Shown here one piece after another: positions 7,533 through 46,200 of a stretch of 64,000 nucleotides of DNA (positions are counted from its first letter, which is position 1; every line of letters begins with the position of its first letter). Origin of the DNA: Neelides folsomi (Eukaryota; Arthropoda; Collembola; Neelipleona; Neelidae); assembly GCA_034687125.1 (NCBI GenBank), contig JAQGBZ010000147.1:1-64000 (forward strand), in the 5' to 3' direction. Both the position numbers and the translations under genes were made by a program. The notes beneath the pieces were generated by a model, which saw only the letters and a list, made by a program, of their open reading frames with translations, ran no database searches and was not told the origin of the DNA.

Positions 7533-10500
7533 ATGTCTTTCCCCCCGCGTCCTCCGATGGGGATGCCTCCAATGTTCATGGGGATGACAGTAGGAATGCC
7601 AAGGCCTCTAATGAGCGCTCCGCCTGGAACAACAACAGCTCTTCCCTTTTTCAATACTCCTGCACCATCATTAAGAGCAGCATCATCGAAGCCGACACGG
7701 CCACAACCATTGATGGCGAAGCCCATCACTCTCACTCCCAAAACTGAAACTCCAGCTCCGGGTTCTGGCCCGCCGGTCACTGTTTTCGTTGGAAATATAA
7801 CTGAAAGATGGCCGGATGCCATGATTCGTCAACTTTTGTCAACATGTGGGCAAGTTCTTAATTGGAAACGCGTCCAAGGAGCTTCAGGGAAACTACAAGG
7901 GTTTGGATTTTGTGAGTTTAATGGTCCCGATAGCGGATTAAGAGCAGTGAGACTTCTTCACGGCTTAGAAGTTGGTGACAAGAAATTAGTTGTGAAAGTC
8001 GACGCAAAAACGAATTCTGTTCTTGAGCTTTTTAAAGGTAATGTAAACAGTTTATTTTCAATGTTACAGTATTACAGTTACAGTACAACACCTATTAATA
8101 AAATACCTACACAAAATGGTACACTGATTATAACAATGTGTTTCTTGATATTTTAGCCGAAAGAAAGAAAAAGGCCGGGGTCGTTGTAGACGATGTTAAA
8201 GTAAAGGAAGAGCCAGAAGATGACGAAGAAGATTATATGGATCAACTTATGAAAGATGCCGACGAGCAGTCCAAAATACGAATTAATATAATTTTTCGTG
8301 AATTTAAAAGTGATCTTGAAGCATACAGTATTCCTTCAGGTATATTTCATACAGGATAATTATTATTTTTAAATCAAATATGGTATTGAATATTTACTAT
8401 ATGTCTTATTAAATATCAAAATAGAAAGAATCTTTTCAGAAAAAGAGCCGACGAATAAGCAACAAATTATTGACAAACTACACCTTCTCAAGCTCAGTAG
8501 TTTAGAAGTGGCTCCAGAAAACGATGTAAGTTGGAATCAATGGCCTTAACATTCCAAACAAACGAAGAATCTCAGTCTTATTTATGCTTTTTAATTCTTA
8601 ATTAATTAATACTTAAATTAATTAATTAATTTTCAGGATATGGACGATGAAGCCATGGAGGAGGGGAAAAGAGAAATCATTACAAGGGAGATCGTGAACT
8701 TTCGAGAAAACATGAAGGTATAATTATAATTTCAAAATGGGATAATGCAAGAAGGTGAACGAAAAATAGTTAATTTAAGGGAGGAATCCTTCTGAGGTTC
8801 CTTGTAATGCTAAGAGTGTAAATGAGCAATAGGGGTTTGCAAGATATAATCTTGGGTCCTCCCCTTCATTAGGCCGCTCGCAAAGGCTGACTTCCATCTC
8901 CAAAAATCTGATTGAGATTAAAGTGTCTTTGGCCGGTTGGTGAGTATTCATTTTGCAAAGTAACTTTTTAATTGGCCGCTCTCTTTGAGACACACTCATA
9001 GTGTCTTATTCTAATCAAGCCAGGTCTTTAATTTCGAGTAGTTTGGTTTCTTGAATGGAGGTGGGTAAGCCATTTGTCTCATTTCCAGCTTACTCCTTTT
9101 TGTACGCTTCGCTCGAAAAGGTTTTAATTTCGACCCTACAGTGAAGCCGATGTCCTGTTGCCGAAGGTCATTGGCGTATTAGTAAGTTTACTTTTTACTC
9201 CTCACGACTGCTTGTTTTGCTTATGATCGAGGCTAATTGTGAAATTTTAGTTTATTTTATAATATTGTTATTTTATAATATTGTTAATTTGGCGTTGAAC
9301 ACTGTCGGGTTTTATCTCGTATAGCGAGAAGACTGTCGGAGGGGAACTGAGCCCCTATTTAGAACTGAAGCATCTCTCTGATCGTCGTTCATCTCTTCGT
9401 TAGGGAGCAACTATCCATTTATCTACCATTGTAAAGATCAACCTAATATTTTCTTCTACATTTAATGTATTCGTACATTCATAATAAATATAATAATGTT
9501 GAATTTTGAATTCTTCTAAAATTACAACATTTAAATTATCAATTATTGACACAATTTTAAAATTTCTATTTTAATATTTTAGTGTGTAGAAGTAGCTTCC
9601 ACTATTGATATATTAATTTTAAAGAGTACTCTGAGATAACTGATGAAAATCATCTGTTTATAAATATAACTTTTACTTAATTACAAATTATATACTATTT
9701 TAAAAGAAAATAACTTGAAATTTTACACATATCTACAGCAAGTAATTAGGAGTTCGTTTCTTAATCATCTAATTGTTTATATTTATTACAGCAAGAAAAG
9801 CAACGTGAAGAAGAAAGAAAGAAAATCGGGAGAGAAAGAAGAGAACGTGAGCGAGAAAGGGAAGAACGGAAAAAAGACACGAGAAATTCCCCATCTCAAT
9901 CAAGAAAAGATCGGGACCGAAGATCTCCAAGAGGTTCAAGATCGCCATCAAATATTTCTAGTCCAAAGAGGACCCGATCAAGGAGTCGGGATAGGCGAGA
10001 TAAAATGGATAGAGATAGAAGCAGAAGCGATCGAGATAGAGACAGGATGAGGGTAAGTTTTCTTCAAACATTATTACATAATTACCAACTCTCGGTAACT
10101 CTCGTTAGAAAGTTAGCTTTTGAGTTCCCGTTTTAAGAACATCATTTAGGTTAACATTAGTTTTAATTGTGATAGATTTAAATTTTGCTTATCTAAATGA
10201 TGTTCTAAAAAGCGGGAACTCAAGAGCTAACTTGTCAACTTTCTAAAGAGAGTACATAAATAATCAGAAATTTGAAAATGATATAATGATTTGAAAATAA
10301 AGTTTTATTTATTTTACCTTCAAAGGAACGTGAAAGGGAAAGGGATCGCGATCGTGATAGGGAAAGAATTTCAAGAACTGGGAGATCATCAAGAGAACGA
10401 GAAAGAGAGAGATCGCCTCCTCCTGCACCCCATAAGCCAAGATATCGTGAGAGAGAGGAAGAAGAAGAAGCAGTCGAACTGAAAAGAATGGAGAGGAAAG

Positions 10501-13862: not shown

Positions 13863-13910
13863 ATGTCGAATATTGTGTCAAATGGCCTGGTTCGGAGACA
13901 GTATTGGTAA
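13863..13910 (+). other. Short upstream ORF overlapping the GMAP-210 start codon
   Basis: An ATG 19 bases before the GMAP-210 ATG opens a 15-codon frame that runs through the main start in another frame and stops at 13908-13910. If the transcript begins upstream of it, the frame could lower translation of the main protein. Its use depends on the unknown transcription start. Confidence 0.35.
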
Positions 13911-15620
13911 TATTAAAAATCAAATTAGCAGTTTTACAAGAGAGGTTTTAAATGAAACTCAAGAAGAAAATAAAGGTATTTTTTTAAATATTAAATCATT
14001 AAAAATCAATAATATGTTAAGTTGTTAATGTTTGGCAAGAAATACCAATAGCGGTTTCAATATTTTAATTAACGATAAACTTGTAATTTATATATTTTTA
14101 TGAAATTCAATTATGTTTATTATTGTCAAAAATTGTAATGTTATCTTTTTTTAGGTTCTTCGGATGACAAAGAATTGGAAGTTTCGAGAGATTTGATAGC
14201 AGATTTAGAGAAATTATGTTTAGAGCAAAAAGACGAGGTTTGTAATTTTCACTCAATATTTATAATGATTTTATTGAATTTACCAATTCTAAAATACAAC
14301 ATATTTATATAACATTTATTTCGATGTTGAATCTCTTTGTTATATAATACATTAATTCATTAACTTTTAATAATAGATCGACCGTTTAAAACTCGAAATA
14401 CGTCAGAGCCATGAAAAGCCGGAAGATATTAATTTACAAGATCAAGAACCCAAAGACAAATCCGAGGATTTTCAAAAAATAATTGCCAACAAAGAGGTAT
14501 GTAATTTAATTAACCATCATTAATGGATTTTTATTATTTAATTATTAGTTTAATTCTAGCTAAATAAAGATTTCATAATTTTTTATAAATAAGCAAGAGC
14601 TGACATATTGTAACATTGTAATGATGACTTTTTGTGTAGGAGGAGATTTTAAGGCTAAAAGATCTTATTGCTGCTTCGAAAGAATCAAAACAGTTGTTGG
14701 TAAGTATTTAAATTGCAATTTTAAATAATATAACATACGATATTAGCAGAGGGAAAATGTTCTCAAACGTCAAAATTTAATAACATATCGGTTAAATCCG
14801 TACATGCTCTATTATTGAATATACTAATTGTATAGTTAGATACGTTAGATTATTCGAACGTTATTTATAATGAACATACCGAGATAAGAAAACAGTTGAA
14901 TATAAGCACTAGAATTATAACAACGTTTATAATTGTGTATTTTTTAAGTTGTACTTGTTTATGAAGAGCTAGGATTGAATGGAGATACAATATTAATTGT
15001 TAAATGCTTTTTACACGTGTATGTCATCTGCAAATATTATTTTATTACATGAGTTTTTGATTAGCAGGAACATATGGAGGATTAATTGGCTTGTTTGAAT
15101 TATTGATTAAGGATTTATTCGTCAATCTAATAGCTTTTTCATGTCGAGAATTATACTTAAATCATCTCGTACCATATGTATGAACAAGTTTAAGAACAAC
15201 ATGAAAGTTAAAGTTATTCTCAAGTTAATCATCAAATGACTTTGTTTCATTCTATAAACGATGAATTAGATACAATAGTAGGTATTGTAGTTTATCTATT
15301 TCATGTTTTTGAACATTACATTATTATAAAATTCATTCTTTGACAGGGAAATCACATTTACTTGACCAATCCGTCATTCGGTGTTTGTTTTACCTATAAA
15401 ACTCGTTTTACTCAACCTTTGAAGTTATACAATATATACCTATCATATATCATTTACATATGTCGTAATAATTATTTTATTACAAAGCTAGCTTATTGGA
15501 AAATTTCCGCCAACTAATATCTACGTAGGGGGTGGTAAAAACTCAAGATTGCAATATTTTAGTTCATCAAGAATCTGTCTGTGATAAAGGCATTATTAAT
15601 CAATATCACTCTCACTAAAT

Positions 15621-27600: not shown

Positions 27601-30600
27601 AGGAATGAGTTGGGTTTTGAAACAAGAAAGTGAGATCCCTGCTTTCGGAATTTTCTCAAGGCTCTGTACATAAATGTTATCTTGCTCTTTCGTCGAAGGC
27701 AATAAAGAAATCTGTGAGTAGGAACTATGGCATGCTCCAGGCCCGATTTGTATAGATAAAATAAATTATAAAATGGCAAGGAAAAACTTGGGCAATAGTT
27801 CTTACGAATCTACACGAGAGGTAAAGAGTTACGGAAAGTTTCCATATTTCACAATGTGTTATTATTGGTTTCCAGCTCTAATGTATATCTAAAGGGAAAA
27901 GGTACGGAGTCAGCAGCAATGTGTTCACATTTGAGCCCAACAGTATTAGGATACTCAAAGATGCTTGAACTCAGATTGAGTGCTCCGAGTTTGAGTAAAG
28001 GGGTCAGAGGCAGTCATCAAATTTCTCTCCTTGCGTCTCAAGTTTTATTTTCTGCTTTCAGCTTTCTCACGGTGTCGAATCATTTACATTCAACTTATTC
28101 TGATACATTAATATTAAACTCAAGTAATGTTAAGTTTTGTACAAGTTATGTACGAGGTACGACTTACGTATTTGCGTTCCCACAAGTTCAAAGTTAAAAA
28201 TTTAAATTGAATGAAGTTATAAAATAATGATAATTCTCATCGATGTTTTCATAAATCATCTTTAACCTATTGACTTTCTTATTATTAAACAATATACATT
28301 AGCTATAAACAACTTAAGCCAGGGACGGACATTTTTATGATAAATAATAGATAAGAGAAATTCTCATTTGGTACATGATACGCATAAATAAATTTTATAA
28401 TAAGATAAAATTGATAATAAATGTTTATGATTGATAATTGAATTTGCAAAATGAAACATAAAGTCCGCACATACATAAACATGTAACTGCCCAATGAAAC
28501 GTTCTTGATAATTTTTGACTAGAAAAGGAACTTGACACTTGTTATTTATAAATATACTTCAAACGTCAGCTTTTTTTCATTTGGTGTCAAAAAGGTTGCT
28601 CAATTGGGGAGGGAGACTTTGCGAAATGAGTTTTCGAGCTGTTTTAATGACTGGAGTTTTACTGTGTGCAATTTTTATGGCTTTTACTTTATTTTCATAT
28701 TGATTGCCGACGGATTCTGGTTTCAAGAAAAACAAAGATAATGGGTAATTTAGTGCGCAAAAGAGAAGTTTATTATTTTACTGAATGTGAGTGAGAGGGC
28801 TAGGGGGTTGAGAAGGTGAACTTGAACGTTTTCTCAGGAAATTATCCATTTAGTTTTATTCCATTCAATCGATAATAAATTTAATGTATTCATTCACTTG
28901 TTAATTTATAGGAACATGAAGTTACAATCGAAGATAATAAATTGGCCGCTATCGTCTCGGAAGAAAATCAGGTTCCAATTACAAAAAATGTCTCGACGGA
29001 AGCCACCGTCTTAACTTTTAATGCCCAGACAGCTACTGATGACTCAGACATTGAACTTCAAGAGTCCTATTCAAAGGTATTTACTTAAATACACAAATTA
29101 TATTCCTACATTTACATTTTATTAGCCCATTTATATATTCCAATACATTTCGAATGCAAGATGAAATTGGATCATTTGGTAATCTGGATAAATTGATAAA
29201 AATGCTTTTTTGTGTATTTCAGGAGCTTGAAGAACGGTGCAATTCATACCAAAACGATCTTTATGTTTTACGAGGGGAGCTGATGGCGCTTCAATCTGAA
29301 TATGATCATCATATTGAGTCGACGGAGAAATTGAACGAAGAAATTCTTGACCGCATGCATTCCGATTTTATCATTGACGGCCAACCCTCTCTAAGGTTTC
29401 ATAAGAAACAATCGGACGAGTCAGGAAAGCTCCTTTTTTCAGTCATTGGTCAATTGTCCACTTTGTGGCGAGATCTTGTTGAGAAAAAGGGGACTCTTGA
29501 GAGGACGGTGGCGAAGCTGAGTGCCGGAAACCGGCAAGAGTTTGACAATGATGTTGAATTGAGCCCTGAATCAACACCTATCAAGGCTATTCAACAACAA
29601 CAGCAGCAGCAACAGCAAATGACGGACTTCTTACCTCCCAAAATTGACTCGTTTGGGTTAGAAACAATTTTGGAGGAAGAAAGGGGCGAGGAAGAAAGCT
29701 TCACTGAGTCCTTTCAACACGACGAACAGGCAGCTTCAATTTCCATTCATAAGTCAACTGTCGAGACTCTTCCTCCAATTAACTCTTCTGTTACAAGCTG
29801 GACGCAGACCAATGAGGATAAAAATGAGGACGAAGAGCAGAAGCTACCCTGCAATTATCTTGGCAATCTCCTTGAACAAGAGAAAGAATGGATGGCTAAG
29901 GTGGGGCACTTTCATTTTTTATACCGCCAGGATGCGGCCTATCAATTCATTCATTTGTACTACTACTACTACTACTACCTATTAAAGTTCCTTGTTATTC
30001 TACATATAGCATATTTCATAATATTATCATTAATAATTTGTTTAACTTTATTGTAGGTGAGCGAGCGAGATGAGAAGATTCGAAAATTGGAATCGGATCT
30101 TGATCGGTTAAAGTCTCACCTTGTTGAATTGGAGGAACAATACACGAGCGAGGCCGTGGTGAGCGAAGAGAAAGAAAAAGGGCTAAAGTTCCAAATGGCG
30201 GAACTACAAAAGGAAATCGTTCAGACAATACAACAAAAGTGAGCCTTCTTATTGATTTTGTTCATTCGTGATGTGCTCTTTATCCTTTTTACCTCATATA
30301 GCTCTTGATGATGAGTTGATGCTCATATTATAGTTAGAATATCAGAAGGGAGATTCCCCCGTTTCTTAACATCGGCGGCGTGCCCTGGAATTTATGATTT
30401 GCTTGACATGAAGGCCAGGCAGATCCCTCCATGCATATTCTTATTTTGTAACGTCATTAAGCTCAAAATCTTGTAGAGCTAAAGTGTTTATGGGGGTCGA
30501 ACAAATTTTATGCAAAGTATTCCTCATTGCATGCCTCGACTAAAAAGAGTGTACCTTATAAACATCACTCCCTGCTGACTCGTTCATTTTTACTTATTCG

Positions 30601-33600
30601 AAGAAGGGTGGTCGGCTGAGTGCTTGCTCAATATGTGTAAACCCCCTTAACATGACCATCCATATTGATTGATTTTTGGAGGGATATCTCGTCGGTCCAA
30701 GCCTTTTGAATAGATAATTTAAACTAGATATCCAGGGTTGTCAGTTTCCCGTGCCACTCTATTTACCTTTTTCATCTTACATAAGAATATTATGTAAACT
30801 CGATTTATGGAGAAGTTCATAGTTTTGTATATGTTTTTAAAGTATACCAATATTTATTTTATAATTGATTTTTACCTGTGATGATTTATTTAGTGAGCGA
30901 AACGGGAGCATACGAGAAGAGGTCGTTAGACTCAATGCGGAAAAAGAACTTCTCAAATCAGAGAATGTCTCTTTGGAAGACCAAATAGCAAAGATGAACA
31001 CTCAACTACAGAATTTACACTTTGTGTTAGAGCAATTTCAGAAAGGTAATACAACCAAGAATGAATGAAAATTAAAGAATGTAAAATGATTTAATCTTGC
31101 ATATTTATTAATGTGGTTATTTTTTATTAAGCTGTAATCTGTTATCTCATATCTCATATCTTATTTTATGGTGGATTTTTAAATTATATGTAATTTGTAT
31201 TTTAAAACTCTGATGGACTTTCCATTCCTTAAGGTTAATAAGCTTATAAGGCATGAAATTTGATGAGTAATGGCATTTAATAAGTGAAGCATTAAACGAA
31301 TTTCCACCATAAAAATTTGAGCATATTAGGACAGTGGAATATAAGAGCTTTGTACTTAATGTCCTTTAAGTAATTTGATTGATTTTGTAAGTATATAAGA
31401 GTGGAAACGTTACTGGTTACAGAAAAAGCATCGGAGATTAAAGGCCTCGAGAAGTCATTCCGAGCTGAGAAAGCAGAGCTTGAAGCGGAGAAGGATCGGA
31501 TTGAGAAAGATTTGCTCCTTGAATCGTCTCTGCTCGCTAAGGCCCGGGCAGGCCTCGATGCCGCTCAAGAGCTGAGCACTCAAATTGAAGAGAAAAGCCG
31601 CATTATCGGAGACCTGAAAGTACAAGGTATTACGCTTTTCTTTCACACTTTCACCTGCATGAAATGGGAGTCTCTTGAGAACAAGATGTGTGTTGTGCGG
31701 TTCCTTCCTTTCATTTGACTTGATTGAGTTGGATTCCATTGAAACATATTGCATTTCGTCCCCGCGGTCTCAAGAGGTGGAAGATGATTGTCTTTTTTGT
31801 CATCTATGTTCGCTTTGCATGTGATCGAGTGTCAAATATCAGTTGGTAATTTGGGTTGAAAAGGCCTAGCCACGACTCCCAAGTTACCAGCTGATACTGG
31901 CCAGACGATCCACAAAAGCATCGAGCCTCTCCCGAATCATTTAATTTCAAAACATCATCAACACATCGGAATCAACTGGGGGTTTTAATTTGCTTTGTTT
32001 GGTTATTATTTTACATAGTAGATGAATGCAAACTTTGTTTTCGTGCCAATTTAGCTTCATGTACAGACCTTACTTTAAGTTAGATTAATTATATTTAATT
32101 AGGAATTTTATGATTAATTTGAGTCTTTAATTGTTAATTGCATCGACAGTCCGATTAAATTGTTAAGGATGATAATTAGAGTTAAGTAAGCACTCAACCC
32201 TTCCACTTTGACCACTAAACTTCTTTTCATGACTTTTGTTTTTTATTCTCTGCACTCAAACCATGCTACTCACATATTTACAGCCTTCATTCACTTTGTT
32301 GTCTTAAATTAAGTTTAAATACTAGTGTTTAATTGGGTTTAATTTAATTACCCTTTACCTTTGCCATACATTTTGTTTGTACATTTTAGTAGCAAGTATT
32401 GATAGGTATATTACCTGTGTATGTATAAATAGTAGAAGGGAGACAACGCACGTTGGCGTTATCTTTTGTTTAGTGCAATCAGAATGGGCACGGACGAGCC
32501 ATTATATTTTTTGGCTATCGAGTAATGTCAAGTTATTTGAATTATTAAAGAAGCGATTTCCCCCACAATCATGATATCGAGTTATAGGGGAATAAATGGG
32601 TCCGATTGAGTCCAACACACTCGAGTGTGTGTATGGAGGGTTTCGTGGTTAGGGAAATATTTTCCTTTATCAAGCACGGGAGCTCATAAGAGCCCTTAAT
32701 AATAACTCTGAGCTATCAAAAAGGAGAAGACAGTTAGCGACTGCATAAGTTATGAGAAGAGTCTTGAGATGGAATGTTTTAGCTTTGCATATTTGAGATG
32801 ACCATTTCATTTCATTTCTCGACCCGAATAATTCATGACTGAATTTGGAATTGGGATAGATGAGTACCTCTTACCATATTCACATATATGAGATATATGT
32901 ATGTGTGTACACCTCCTCCAGAACCGTTCCTATCCAATTCGACGTTCGAGTGGCTGGACAAAGCTCGTGGATTTATTCATGAGTCGCTCCTGCTCTGGTA
33001 GTTGGGCTTTACTAACGATAAGTTCTCCATTTGCGGTGGTCTCCCCCTTTTTATTCTCCGGAGGTGAAGTGAGGAGTTTGGTCGTGAGGGAGAAATCATC
33101 AACGAAGGTGAGGGAGTTCTTCGAATAATCCACTAACCATTTTAATACAACGGCCACTGACAAGCTGATGACTAAAAACTCTAAAACCCACACTAATCAT
33201 TATTAGTTGCTTGGACTAATCTCATTTGGTAACTCAGAGACGGTCGTTTGATCCTGCACTCGACCCCTTATGGGGAAGGGTGTGGGGAAGAGCTCTCGGG
33301 TTGCTCAGTGAGATTTGGCCCACGGCTAATGCAATTCTTCTCTTGGGGCTCCTTCTATCATCCGCTTCTCATCCATGTAGAGAAAATTCTTCGACCTACT
33401 AATCATCTCCGCTACATCATTTCTCTCTTCAGCTCTATAGACTTAAGTTGAACTGTTTAGTATTTGAATACTACCATACAATGACGCTCGGACTTTATCA
33501 ATGTTTAAGTAGTTAAAAATATTATGGTTAATTAATCAATGTGTAAGTAGTTTTATATTGAAATAATAATATTTTTATAATTTCTATTTTAGTGTGTCCA

Positions 33601-36231
33601 ATCATTGTGATTTCTTTCTTCCATTTAATCTGTTCATTCAATCTTTTTTGACTAAATGAATGCATGGTCGATAAAATTGTTTCTTCATATATGAGATTGC
33701 GTGCATGCAAGGATCTGTGAAATTTTACGTGATGATAAGTGATCTCCTTTTATGACTTGCTTTCCCCATTTGGCCTAAGAACAAATAGCATTGGTTACGA
33801 AAGGTGTGAAAAGTCCTTATAATACTTTTGTAACAATTCTTAAATATTTATTATATTCCTCGATAGGATGTAAATCGGAAGTCTTAAATGCATAAAGTCT
33901 ACAACTAAAATATTTATATAATTTATTGTATTAATTAGCAGAAAAAAATAATTATGAAGATGTTTTCTTTGGACTTTTCTTTCCTTTGTATGAATTATTG
34001 CTTCACGGTGAGGTAGTACCAGTAGGCGTCTTTTTTCAAAATTATACCTAAACCACATAAGAAACTTAGGGTAAATATCAAAAGAGAATGCTAACTAACC
34101 TCTCATGCTCCATTACTTTTGGCAAAGGAGAAAATTACCTTTATCGAATTAAAATTGAAATATTTATTACACAGAGAAAATAAGGCAGTTTGGGCTGACT
34201 TAATCGCAAAAGAGTGCTATAGCTAATGACATGCTTCAACTCTAATCTCTCTTAATGTTACTCAATACATCATCATTTTTCTATATCTCACTACAGTCAT
34301 AAAGTTTCATTTAAATATTTAGCTAATTCTTGATATACTATTACATTTACGTTTAAATGCTATATACGTATTTAGTTATGCCTGTATTCTTTAGACTTAT
34401 TGCTCAAGGAATGAATTGTAAGCAGTTCTCAGATGGCCACCTACTTATATTCTACTAGTTATATTATATTGAAGGTTTATCATTTTGTGGAGTGATGAGA
34501 TAAAAGCAATAAAACATTAATTAAACTTCCCATGCGTAATGTAATTTTCAAAAACGTGAATATCTCATGCCGAATATGTATAAATTGATGACATAAAAAA
34601 GGGTGAAATTCTCATATTATTAAGATGGTGGTCTACCCTTATTTTCAAAATTGTATAAAAAATCCTTAATAAACAATTGTTGTCGTATGTCATTAAGTAT
34701 AATTCTGTTATTTACCTAATTGGATGAAATGTAGTGTCTTTAGTTAAATATTTAATAACATGAATGTGAAATATTTTTATATTATAATTAATTTATATAA
34801 AAAATTAGAATAATAAGTTTTGTGGATGGATTTTGTTTGTATTTACTATACCTTGTATTAATAAGCCCTTGCTATTACCTTAATGAATTCGCAAGTCTCA
34901 TACCGGAAATGAAGCATTTGGAGAGGAATGGTTAATCCGAAATATTGGATTTGACGTTTGGCCCTTGGCTGTGGCATGGCTCTCCTCGTCGCAATAATCC
35001 TCTGGTTTGGGTTATGAGTATTATGTCAGGTACTGGTTTGATCTCAGAGACCAGTGTCTGTCTAATACTTGTATCCCGGCTGGAACTTAAGCATGGCGGC
35101 CCCTCAATCGCTTCGCTCGACGTCCCACCAACATTTCTAATCAAACAAGACGCCGTCATTGAATTGAATCCCTGGAATTCTCGAATGAGCAACTCCTTTC
35201 TAATTATCCTCTCCGAGAAAATTAAATCCCTCCGACATATTTCTCACTTCTATTTACAAGTAGACTCATAGACATGTGAATAGACAGAAATTAGACTCAA
35301 TTTCTTATTTATTTAATATTAAATTACACTTTTTATGTTTAATCTTCAAATTACACTCATAAGAAGTCATTTGACCCATTTCTACTTTTTTTTGTTTTAG
35401 TCGCTGAAAGAGAAGCTGAAGTTGGGAAGTTCAAATCGCAAATGGACGAAGTTTCCAAAAATCTTGATGGAAAAATTGATCGGTAAATTAAAAACACATG
35501 AATAATAAATAATTAAATATGTTATTATAATATTTTATTTTTATTTTATTAGTAATCCTAGATTTGAATGCATTAAAGTTTTAAATCAATATTTAATTTA
35601 AATTTTAGGTATTTGATAAAGAATTTGATCGTTGGGTATTTCTCAACTCCCGGAGACAAAAGGAAGGAGGTTCTTCGTGTAATTGCGACCGTCCTCGATT
35701 TCAATAGGGAAGATCGACAAAAGACGGGACTTGAATCCTCAAGTTCTCTCTGGCCCTTCGGCAAAGCGAGCTCTCCAGGAGAGAAACAAGTAAAAGCTTT
35801 CCCCTATTTAAAGAACATGAGAGACATCCTTTCGTTCATTCCATTAATTAACAATGCCCCTTTTCTCTCTCTCTAGTCACTATCCGAGGCGTTCATTCGA
35901 TTCTTAGAGAGTGAGTCGCAGCCAATACTCCAAATGAAAATGGGTCCAGATGAAATCGGCCGAAGGAGTTCGAGGGTTAGTTGAATGAAAAACAAATTTC
36001 CACTTCTCTATATTACACTCTTTCCTTTTATCTCACCCTTCATTAATTCATTATCAATTGAATTCACTTTAATTCCCATTTTAGTCGAGCAGCAGCTCTT
36101 CAGCGTCACCCGAAACCTCTGGGATTCAAACTGAACATCCAGTCTCGGAAATGTCTGTGACCCTTCCTATTCTCAACCAAGCAGAGAAGAGCAATTCGAT
36201 ATTAAAAGATGTCCTTAATCCAAAACCTTAA
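13882..36231 (+). CDS. Trip11: GMAP-210 / TRIP11 golgin, short form with ALPS helix and GRAB domain
   Basis: GMAP-210 is a long coiled-coil tether of the cis-Golgi: its N-terminal ALPS helix binds curved vesicles and its C-terminal GRAB domain binds Arf1 on Golgi membranes. Exons are 13882-13975, 14155-14237, 14377-14496, 14640-14699, 28912-29076, 29223-29900, 30057-30238, 30894-31045, 31423-31626, 35401-35482, 35609-35789, 35877-35975 and 36085-36231, all in phase, giving 748 residues. The start MAWFGDSIGNIKNQISSFTR parallels the human ALPS region (GQISNFTKDML). The middle is heptad-rich coiled coil, with NLHFVLEQFQ like human NLQMVLEHFQ. GRAB at about 608-655 shows LIKNLIVGYFSTPGDKRKEV. Later FIRFLESESQP and the terminal SILKDVL match the human C-terminus. 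The protein is far shorter than human (1979 residues), so much coiled coil is missing. Extra exons in the 14 kb intron cannot be excluded. Confidence 0.92.
14700..28911 (+). other. Very large GMAP-210 intron (about 14.2 kb), no gene recognised
   Basis: It lies between the fourth and fifth mapped coding exons, with donor GTAAGT at its start and TTTATAG at its end. The first 3 kb are AT-rich. From about 18 to 28 kb there are GC-richer stretches, notably 21.1-23.5 and 26.4-27.1 kb, with many short overlapping open frames on both strands. None has a recognisable domain or a convincing chain of splice sites. The longest plus-strand frame (26572-26895) reads like chance. Regulatory elements, old repeats or missed exons remain possible. 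Confidence 0.6.
15626..15665. repeat. (AT)n microsatellite, about 20 units
   Basis: Uninterrupted alternating A and T for 40 bases in the large GMAP-210 intron. Confidence 0.95.
29592..29618 (+). repeat. CAA/CAG run encoding nine glutamines in GMAP-210
   Basis: In-frame mixed CAA and CAG codons code for residues 298-306 of the predicted golgin, in a less helical linker between coiled-coil parts. Length polymorphism is likely for such a tract. Confidence 0.9.
29958..29978. repeat. (TAC)7 microsatellite in a GMAP-210 intron
   Basis: Seven uninterrupted TAC units in the short intron 29901-30056. Confidence 0.9.
31823..31910 (+). ncRNA. mir-283: mir-283-like microRNA precursor
   Basis: The 5' arm carries a mature-like sequence at about 31833-31855 starting CAAATATCAGTTGGTAAT. 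From memory Drosophila miR-283 reads UAAAUAUCAGCUGGUAAU at its start, so the seed AAATATC is intact. The 3' arm 31878-31900 (CCCAAGTTACCAGCTGATAC) pairs with it for 19 consecutive positions, counting G-U pairs. The base of the stem closes with GATCG (31823-31827) against CGATC (31906-31910), leaving a loop of roughly 20 bases. It lies in the GMAP-210 intron 31627-35400 on the sense strand, so it is probably processed from the host intron. Expression is not shown by sequence alone. Confidence 0.85.
33212..33320 (+). ncRNA. mir-304 / mir-216-family microRNA precursor
   Basis: The 5' arm has TAATCTCATTTGGTAACTCA at 33217-33236. The seed AATCTCA is that of the miR-216/miR-304 family (Drosophila miR-304 begins UAAUCUCAAUUUGUAAA from memory). 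The 3' arm 33291-33318 (ending TTGCTCAGTGAGATTTG) folds back on it with about two dozen pairs, a few mismatches and one or two bulges. The terminal loop is long, about 50 bases, and may form its own small stem. It sits between the mir-283-like and mir-12-like hairpins on the same strand. The family call is good; which paralogue it is (216 or 304) is open. Confidence 0.72.
35001..35083 (+). ncRNA. mir-12: mir-12-like microRNA precursor
   Basis: The 5' arm mature-like sequence starts at 35015 with TGAGTATTATGTCAGGTACT. From memory arthropod miR-12 reads UGAGUAUUACAUCAGGUACU, so only two central bases (positions 10 and 11) differ and the seed is intact. The 3' arm (35050-35076, GACCAGTGTCTGTCTAATAC then TTGTATC) folds back on it: GGGTTATGAGTATTA pairs with TAATACTTGTATCCC and TACTGGT with ACCAGTG, around a short loop. 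The hairpin is about 320 bases upstream of the next GMAP-210 exon, on the sense strand. Confidence 0.88.
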
Positions 36232-43200: not shown

Positions 43201-46200
43201 CTTTTGCTCGACATCACTCATTTTGAGAGCAATTGAATCTGCTTCGCTTCTTACTCTCCCAGTCAATTCAATTACTTTGATATTCCAATCCTAAGGAGTC
43301 TTAAAAATTGAACACCTAGGATCAAATCAATAAAGGTCTACTTTGAATTTTTCAATTCTACTCCTACTAAAGGCTTTTTCCTAATACATCTGTAATATGA
43401 AATTGAACCGATATGAATTTAATGATAAAATTTATTACATCTATGATTTTTAAATATTATTTATTTTATGCCTTTTGTATTTTAAAGCACAATATTTGTG
43501 CCACAAATGAAAGATAACGATGCTACTTTAAAACATTTGAATAGCATTTAAGTTCATGATAAAAGTCCCTTGTTCTCATTTCTTATCTCGGGAGCTTCAA
43601 TTCATTTTTAGAGTATTTTCATATTGAACCTTTCAATGTGAAAGGTTCTTTCCTGAATTGCATTAAGCTCGTTTAAGTTTTCCAATACTTATAACTTTTT
43701 GTCCTTTGCATTATCAAAATAAATTTTAAGTACGAGTAACGAACCATTATGTATTGCATACATAAATTTTTGTACTTGGCTCAACACAAGTAAAGTGAGA
43801 AGGTTTTAAACCCATAGATGTTGCATTTCGCCCCATTGGCGGTTTTTTTGGCGGTTTGAGGATGTTCATAACAGTTATTTAATTATTTATTTATATTTGT
43901 AATATATCCATTTGCAATATTATTACATATTTCCATTTTTATTCACATTATATAACTCATTTAAAATATTTACAAGAGGAATTCTGTGCCCTAATTGACA
44001 ATTAAATTCATAATAGAAAATACGCACTAGTTGGAATCCAAATTTTTTATGAGTTGTATTATGGTTATTAATCATATTAAACTCTAAATTGGGTTCCAAC
44101 TAGCGTGCATTTTGAGATATGAGAAAATCCCATGTATTTTAAACGGGAGTTAAAAATAGAACTCAATGTCTCATTTCTCACTTTACTTGTGTTGAGCCAC
44201 TTACTAATTTAGGAATAATTATAATAACTATACAATATAATAAAAATATATGATTAAAGTGATCATATGAATTAAATTAGAAAGCTCTAACATGTATAAG
44301 TATAAGTATAACGTGTTCTTGGTCTCGCGAAATTTTATTGATTAAATGATTAATCATCTGGTTCATCATGGAAAGCTTAGGAGTGGAGGCGGACGAATGA
44401 CACATCGTTTTGATGTCTTTGACTTCCAAAGAATAGAATTTATCTCTTACTAGTAAGTATTATTATTATTTGCCGCAAAATTAATTTACTTCGTTGATTC
44501 CTTTATTTACTTTACACCTACAATTTGATATTAACTATTAAGAGGTCTTCTAACATATTACAAGTCATACTCTTTTCAAAATACTTTAAAAAGTATTATT
44601 TTGATCTGGTGATTTTGATCATATTTTAATTTTATATACCTACGCACATTTTTAAAGATTAAAAGACAGAGCAGAGATTGAATATTCTTTAGATCATCAA
44701 AAATATTTGAGATTAAAAAGAAAAATTTTGAAAAGGAAAATGCGGATTGCACGATCAAAGTTGTCAATTCTTCAGGGAGACCTCCTGCTGTGAAGTGATT
44801 TAATATCTAGAAAGGGCCAGCAACGTCAAAGATACTAGAGATATAATGTCTAGTTTTTTTATATTTTTGAATGATGTATTTTGTATGAAACCAATACATG
44901 AGAAGTGAGAAGAATCAAAGATTCTCTTGATCATTTACTACATTTTGAGCTCGAAAGGTTGTTGGAATATGAGGAGGTATATATTGTACTCGTCTACTCG
45001 TAAATCTAAGTATTTGGCAATAGTCGACAGACACTCTCACTTCAAGTGTAGGAGTGCGAGCTAAAAAAGCAATTTAATAAAAAAAATCTCAAAAAAGTTT
45101 TTTACCCAAAAGAAATCTTTACTGAAACCGGGAATGCGACGATGAGAGGCACCCGTCTGCTCGACGAATTGGACGAAAGCATCTGGATTGTCAAGGGACC
45201 GAATGGCGTTGTCTAATGTGGACATGACCATGGAGGCGTGCTCAGCCAGCTCCAAGCTCTCTTCTTGCTGCTCTTTCGTTCTCAAACTCGCAAACTTCTC
45301 AAAGAGATCCAGTAGCTCGGAATATTCCTCAAAGAGTCTGAAATTGAAAGGGAAATTAATGAAACTCAATATGTTGCGGCGGGTTAATCCCTTTCCACTC
45401 CTTTCATTTTTCATTTCAACGTTTACCTCAATTCAGTTCCTCCATTTCCTCCACTTTTTTGGCTTCTTACTTTTATATTCATTTTACATATTTATGTCCT
45501 TGTTGGAGACCCTTTATGGCTTTTATGCTTTATGGGAAAGCCCAGGGAGATTTTAAATCCATTGTCAAATTCATCGATACAGTATGTGCATATTTATACG
45601 AATACAGAGTGAGTATGACATATTGTGTATGACATATTGTATAAAAATTTTCTTGGAATTTCTAAAAAATGATATCCAAGACGGTTCTGAAGCAAGGGAT
45701 TTGTTGGTCAAGCGAACAACAAGTAGAGCTAATGAACTTCCTTCTCCGCTTTCCCTTCGACCATTCGCTCATGACCTCAAAATATTTCTCTCGCCATGGT
45801 CGATTCCTTACATAATTCATAAACCAACCATGGATTGGATTTTGGGATGAAGGCGCACAAGAAGAGACTTGCGTGTAAATAATACAGAAGAGGGATATGA
45901 CGATGGGACGTTTGATATCCTGGTCAGCTCCATTACGGTCTGATGAATTTTCCTCATTGAGGGTAAAGTGAAATAAGTTAATTTTGCATTGAATCATTGA
46001 ATGCCAACGTAGAGACCATTAGCAAATTTGATCAACAGATTCCTTCTGCTCCCATGCTTTACAATTTCAACTAAAGAACAAGAGAAGGCTATTGATTAAA
46101 ATTGCAAATTATGGAGCTCGAATCTGTTCTGTGACGAATGCGAGGAATTTCCCTAGTGTTGGGAAGTTCCTTAATAGATAATAGGGAGTAATAATGGTAA

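Follow-up and report, generated by a model that had tools for sequence, protein, structure and literature searches.

A predicted mir-283/mir-3477/mir-12 cluster within an intron of the GMAP-210 gene of Neelides folsomi

Results

Host gene and miRNA-bearing intron

The window, i.e., the whole stretch of 64,000 nucleotides of N. folsomi DNA analysed here, contains nine exons on its + strand, which extend from 28912 to 36231 and splice into a single open reading frame of 629 codons followed by a TAA stop codon. AG precedes each of the nine exons, and GT follows each of the first eight. Five of them (28912-29076, 29223-29900, 30057-30238, 30894-31045, and 31423-31626) are located upstream of an intron of 3774 nt at 31627-35400, which begins with GT, ends with AG, and interrupts the frame in phase 1; the remaining four follow at 35401-35482, 35609-35789, 35877-35975, and 36085-36231, the last one containing the stop codon. 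The initial annotation had placed a microRNA cluster in the interval 31627-35400, which indeed coincides exactly with this intron and harbors three hairpins. The first modelled exon (28912-29076) lacks a start codon, so that the model does not reach the 5' end of the gene.

The spliced protein contains a GRAB domain (PF10375), which is encoded by the exon at 35609-35789 and recognized by Pfam with 33.7 bits against a cut-off of 26. The overlapping GRIP model (PF01465) passes as well, with a lower score of 30.5 against a cut-off of 24.4. The miRNA-bearing intron falls after about residue 460 of the 629 modelled residues, roughly 22 residues ahead of the GRAB match. In the entire 75-Mb genome, this exon represents the sole GRAB match at E <= 0.001. 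We take GRAB to be the Arf-binding domain of GMAP-210/Rud3, and the gene TRIP11 (thyroid receptor-interacting protein gene) presumably corresponds to GMAP-210. The domain score and the consistent splice frame thus bear out the identification of the host as GMAP-210, as proposed before.

Another coding exon on the + strand, at 13882-13975 (MAWFGDSIGNIKNQISSFTREVLNETQEENK; its end was read by eye), codes for an ALPS-like sequence, which we assume to resemble the N-terminus of GMAP-210, and is probably the exon with which the coding region of the host begins. It precedes the modelled exons by about 15 kb on the same strand and probably belongs to the same gene as the exons bearing the GRAB domain. 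The intron following it is in phase 1, whereas the next modelled exon at 28912 requires phase 0, which indicates that connecting exons are absent from the model; exons joining 13882-13975 in frame to 28912 were not found. The placement of the ALPS-like exon implies a long 5' region of the host gene with further exons.

As judged by eye, other coding stretches on the + strand of the window resemble splicing factors, namely IK/RED at 3.7-6.5 kb and RBM25 at 7.5-12.9 kb; the - strand carries a gene for a membrane protein (0.9-2.7 kb) with similarity to a nucleotide-sugar transporter.

Three hairpins related to known miRNA families

An Rfam scan of the window at the curated cut-offs gave no matches, because all three hairpins of the intron score below the respective gathering values (50 for mir-283, 53.5 for mir-216, and 55 for mir-12), which serve as annotation cut-offs and are not biological criteria. 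With the cut-offs lifted, a scan of positions 31000-36000 lists nine matches at E <= 10. These include a mir-283 hairpin of the MIR-216 family at 31822-31909 (RF00747, 26.9 bits, E = 0.053), a second hairpin of the MIR-216 family with a long forked loop at 33209-33324, which occupies the position of mir-3477/mir-304 and is matched by the mir-216 model (RF00654, 24.3 bits, E = 0.24), and a mir-12 hairpin at 35009-35077 (RF00751, 52.4 bits, E = 1.7e-9), which aligns to the full length of its model (1-74). All three are found in the expected order and on the + strand, i.e., the strand of the host, as the initial annotation had stated. Their seeds (nt 2-8) are identical to the respective Rfam consensus, namely AAUAUCA for mir-283, AAUCUCA for the middle hairpin, and GAGUAUU for mir-12. 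At E <= 10, 12 matches are listed across the window, and none of them places the mir-12, mir-283, or mir-216 family outside these hairpins.

Genome-wide scoring with the Rfam models covered the best candidates of a first look at the 75-Mb genome (58 for mir-12, 54 for mir-283, and 61 for mir-216). Among these, a single match to mir-12 passed E <= 0.001, with E = 6.2e-9. At E <= 10, the mir-283 model recognized both strands of the hairpin at 31822-31909 and nothing else (E = 0.18 and 1.02), and the mir-216 model recognized the middle hairpin alone (E = 0.87); no mir-216 match at E <= 0.001 was obtained in the whole genome. Chance matches at E <= 10 also appeared in bacterial and archaeal control genomes, in 4 of 14 with the mir-283 model and in 7 of 14 with the mir-216 model, so that the E-values of these two families are weak on their own. 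The weight of both matches lies in their being the expected partners of mir-12 within one intron, and since the mir-216 model is weak if taken alone, the assignment of the middle hairpin is based on its match to miR-3477, its folding, and its place.

Further sub-threshold Rfam calls in the intron, namely snR13, SNORD102, and a mir-303 call over the mir-12 hairpin, were put down to chance or hairpin symmetry, as were weaker, likewise sub-threshold matches on the antisense strand of the mir-12 and mir-283 hairpins. A hairpin candidate at 32745-32835, which overlaps an Rfam MIR1886 match at 32765-32816 (18.3 bits), was rejected, as its z-score is only -1.5 and its folding is equalled by 20 of 200 shuffles.

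Predicted mature sequences

Published mature sequences were searched on both strands of the window with up to three mismatches, dvi-miR-283 being represented by its first 22 nt. Each of the three has a single match in the window, located at the 5p arm where it was expected; 100 shuffles yielded 0.01 chance matches per window for miR-3477 and 0.00 each for miR-12 and miR-283. The predicted miR-283-5p (AAATATCAGTTGGTAATTTGGG, 31834-31855, + strand; star at 31880-31900) differs from dvi-miR-283 of PMC9170749 at 3 of 22 nt. The predicted miR-3477-5p (TAATCTCATTTGGTAACTCAGAG, 33217-33239, + strand; star at 33297-33319) corresponds to dvi-miR-3477 of the same paper, which aligns to 33217-33238 with 20 of 22 nt identical, including the first 18, the changes being located at nt 19-20. 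The predicted miR-12-5p (TGAGTATTATGTCAGGTACTGGT, 35015-35037, + strand; star at 35052-35073) shows two mismatches, at positions 10 and 11, to the D. magna miR-12-5p given in PMC6828783. All star arms were placed on the predicted folds by assuming a 2-nt 3' overhang. As judged from its predicted mature arm, the middle hairpin is best named miR-3477. The original designation of the trio as mir-283, mir-304, and mir-12 therefore stands for the two outer members and for the position of the middle one, which is, however, closest in sequence to beetle miR-3477.

Taken together, these matches leave a virtually negligible probability that intronic inverted repeats merely resemble the three miRNAs by chance. 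Such a chance likeness would agree with Rfam scores below the cut-offs for all three hairpins, and an unrelated palindromic repeat at 10100-10240 shows that strong hairpins of non-miRNA nature occur in this DNA and can draw a false call. However, three independent matches to the expected miRNAs, located in the expected order on one strand of the expected host, argue against it, as do the very low numbers of mature matches in shuffled windows, and for mir-12 it is refuted by the genome-wide E-value.

Folding and processing features

In comparison with shuffled sequences, the hairpins reach z-scores of -6.7 (88 nt) and -7.9 (111 nt) for mir-283, -5.1 (126 nt) and -5.4 (149 nt) for the middle hairpin, and -5.4 (81 nt) and -5.0 (106 nt) for mir-12. 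Poor folding relative to shuffled sequence had been named beforehand as a possible refutation of the cluster, and none of the 200 shuffles folds as well as any of the three hairpins.

A coarse scan of the + strand of the window (1598 segments of 110 nt in 40-nt steps, 20 shuffles each) yielded z <= -5 in five segments, two of which overlap the middle and the mir-12 hairpins; the segment covering mir-283 reached just -3.9. The strongest segment of the scan starts at 10121, within the near-perfect inverted repeat at 10100-10240 (z = -13.3). This region also drew a weak Rfam call for plant MIR395 (37.5 bits against a cut-off of 56), which was dismissed as a genomic repeat: with both strands counted, 69 matching stretches are spread across many contigs, which indicates a MITE-like palindromic repeat, so that the MIR395 call is false. 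The second-strongest fold of the scan, at 44001-44110 (z = -6.2 with 20 shuffles), has no counterpart among the Rfam matches listed at E <= 10.

In the modelled duplexes, 20 of 22 nt of the 5p arm are paired in mir-283, 21 of 23 in the middle hairpin, and 21 of 23 in mir-12, and the modelled pre-miRNAs comprise 67, 103, and 59 nt, respectively. The loop of the middle hairpin amounts to 57 nt and contains an inner stem. CNNC motifs start 19 nt (mir-283), 18 nt (middle hairpin), and 4, 24, and 27 nt (mir-12) after the modelled 3' cut, which is near the usual distance in mir-283 and the middle hairpin only; of the three, mir-283 alone shows a basal UG at -14.

These features also bear on the question whether only mir-283 and mir-12 are genuine and the middle hairpin represents a decaying or non-functional relic of mir-304/3477, which we regard as unlikely. 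A relic would be in accordance with the weak Rfam score of this hairpin, the two substitutions by which it departs from beetle miR-3477 at nt 19-20, and the 57-nt loop with its own inner stem, but it is difficult to reconcile with the identity of the first 18 nt, including the seed, to the dvi-miR-3477 sequence as recorded in PMC9170749, with the extensive pairing of the 5p arm (21 of 23 nt), and with a z-score of about -5 that is matched by 0 of 200 shuffles.

Mitochondrial gene order

A contig of 15,157 bp appears to cover the whole mitochondrial genome, or nearly so. Its genes are arranged, allowing for the customary exceptions in strand, in the order I-Q-M-nad2-W-C-Y-cox1-L(UUR)-cox2-K-D, followed by atp8, atp6, cox3, and nad3; the tRNAs were called by ARAGORN in mitochondrial mode (L with anticodon taa) and cox1 by Pfam, and the other genes were named by eye. 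ARAGORN in ordinary mode returned no tRNA on this contig. One of the ARAGORN modes also placed two tRNAs on the opposite strand of Lys and Asp, which were disregarded. A tRNA-Leu(UUR) between cox1 and cox2 is a classic pancrustacean marker, and a crustacean or a hexapod is therefore the most likely source. The gene order fits the "probable crustacean" of the initial annotation, but also allows a hexapod.

Discussion

The features of the intron are very probably explained by a conserved mir-283/mir-3477/mir-12 cluster residing in a pancrustacean GMAP-210 (Gmap, TRIP11) gene, with mir-3477 taking the position of mir-304 in flies and of mir-1889 in mosquitoes. The sequence itself demonstrates the hairpins with their kinship, seeds, order, strand, and host intron, whereas transcription and processing of the hairpins, the usage of their arms, their targets, and a common descent of the intron itself are inferred. 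Drosha would most likely excise the three hairpins from intronic sequence of the GMAP-210 pre-mRNA or else from a shorter same-strand transcript, and dicing may then yield the miRNAs, with the 5p arms (miR-283-5p, miR-3477-5p, and miR-12-5p) as predicted main products. The order and the place of the cluster would have been inherited from a pancrustacean ancestor.

Whether the expression of the cluster is coupled to that of its host, a Golgi tether, appears uncertain, and the available records on flies may be read as speaking partly against it. The expression of miR-304 and miR-12 is correlated in flies (r = 0.69), while miR-283 is uncorrelated with either miR-304 (r = 0.04) or miR-12 (r = 0.02), according to PMC3150300, and depletion of Gmap does not mimic the effect of a miR-283 knockout in the fly testis, as reported in the relevant part of PMC12714197. 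It is rather doubtful that the cluster is held in its intron by selection for joint expression with the Golgi tether instead of by plain inheritance. Such selection would be consistent with the recurrence of the same host in flies, an orthologous host in mosquitoes, an inferred one in Daphnia, and again the same one here, as recorded in the sources discussed below, and with the location of all three hairpins on the host strand. However, both the missing correlation of miR-283 with the other two members and the Gmap depletion result argue against such selection, and the inertia of a tandem intronic cluster accounts for its retention equally well. The simplest account is that a tandem intronic cluster was retained through inheritance. 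A more far-reaching view, according to which the cluster has resided in GMAP-210 since before the Pancrustacea, possibly since a bilaterian MIR-216/MIR-12 cluster, with a functional tie to the host intron and the enlarged forked loop of the middle hairpin acting as an element of regulated processing, is very unlikely.

The arrangement as such is already in print for Drosophila, mosquitoes, and Daphnia magna, in the last case by inference, as evident from the sections on the cluster in the respective papers. Because the same cluster and host have been published, the present locus adds a species to a known arrangement, namely another pancrustacean that retains the cluster inside one intron of the same host, with its order and strand unchanged. 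The precursors have diverged too far for the default cut-offs of Rfam, and default annotation therefore misses the cluster. The locus also contributes another hairpin to the question of how miR-304, miR-3477, and miR-1889 are related. Its miR-3477/304-like arm in the sense 5p position suggests that this is the ancestral orientation, although the sense-5p orientation observed here does not by itself separate arm switching from inversion in the mosquitoes.

In Drosophila, the cluster from mir-283 to mir-12 overlaps Gmap according to Table 2 of PMC4043116, and miR-283 is described as nested in Gmap in the relevant part of PMC12714197, which agrees with the parallel drawn in the initial annotation. 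For Anopheles and Drosophila, the passages on the cluster in PMC2430712 report miR-12/304/283 in an intron of orthologous genes, with conserved order and host strand, and state that the exons flanking this intron are conserved in Aedes, too. Aedes miR-1889 was added to the cluster later, as described in the corresponding part of PMC2797818. Since the passages concerned leave the host unnamed in both of these papers, the mosquito host is recognized as the ortholog of Gmap through the data on Drosophila. In Daphnia pulex, miR-283, miR-nov-13 (which carries the miR-3477 seed), and miR-12 form a cluster, while the members in D. magna are distributed over two scaffolds, which the authors connect on the grounds that the gene for the thyroid receptor-interacting protein spans both (section on the cluster in PMC6828783). 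Open-access papers that mention TRIP11 or the thyroid receptor-interacting protein together with mir-216 and mir-12 comprised this D. magna paper and three on human disease. The published insect and Daphnia data already imply that the arrangement predates the split between insects and branchiopods, in line with the earlier proposal that it is older than the split of the lineages. A miR-283-12 cluster "as observed in most arthropods" is mentioned for millipedes in the relevant passage of PMC7523956, and the crustacean Parhyale yielded no mir-283 according to that of PMC5111886, which indicates that the cluster is not universal.

A comparison with these systems shows the following relations, as far as the parts of the papers dealing with the cluster describe them. 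The locus of N. folsomi has the host gene, the three members, the host strand, and the place of the middle member in common with the Drosophila Gmap cluster, but differs from it in that the middle member is near beetle miR-3477, the mature sequences deviate from the Rfam consensus, and the scores remain below the cut-off. With the mosquito cluster of miR-283, miR-1889, and miR-12, it shares the location in an intron of the ortholog of the fly host, the order (as compared between Anopheles and Drosophila), and the host strand. Mosquito miR-1889 resembles the reverse complement of miR-304, and the relevant passages of PMC2430712 and PMC2797818 leave open whether it represents an inversion or the other arm, whereas the sense 5p arm is miR-3477/304-like here; when compared by eye, miR-1889 is about equally similar to either arm of the middle hairpin. 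The comparison with Diabrotica (PMC9170749) refers to the mature arms only, of which dvi-miR-3477 and dvi-miR-283 are identical at 20 and 19 of 22 nt, respectively. A miR-3477 is also recorded for Apis (ame-miR-3477, PMC8466209); the middle hairpin of the present locus has a 57-nt loop. Daphnia finally shares the three-member cluster tied to the thyroid receptor-interacting protein gene (PMC6828783); the location in D. magna was inferred across scaffolds in a section that does not use the word "intron", whereas the trio of N. folsomi is complete within one intron.
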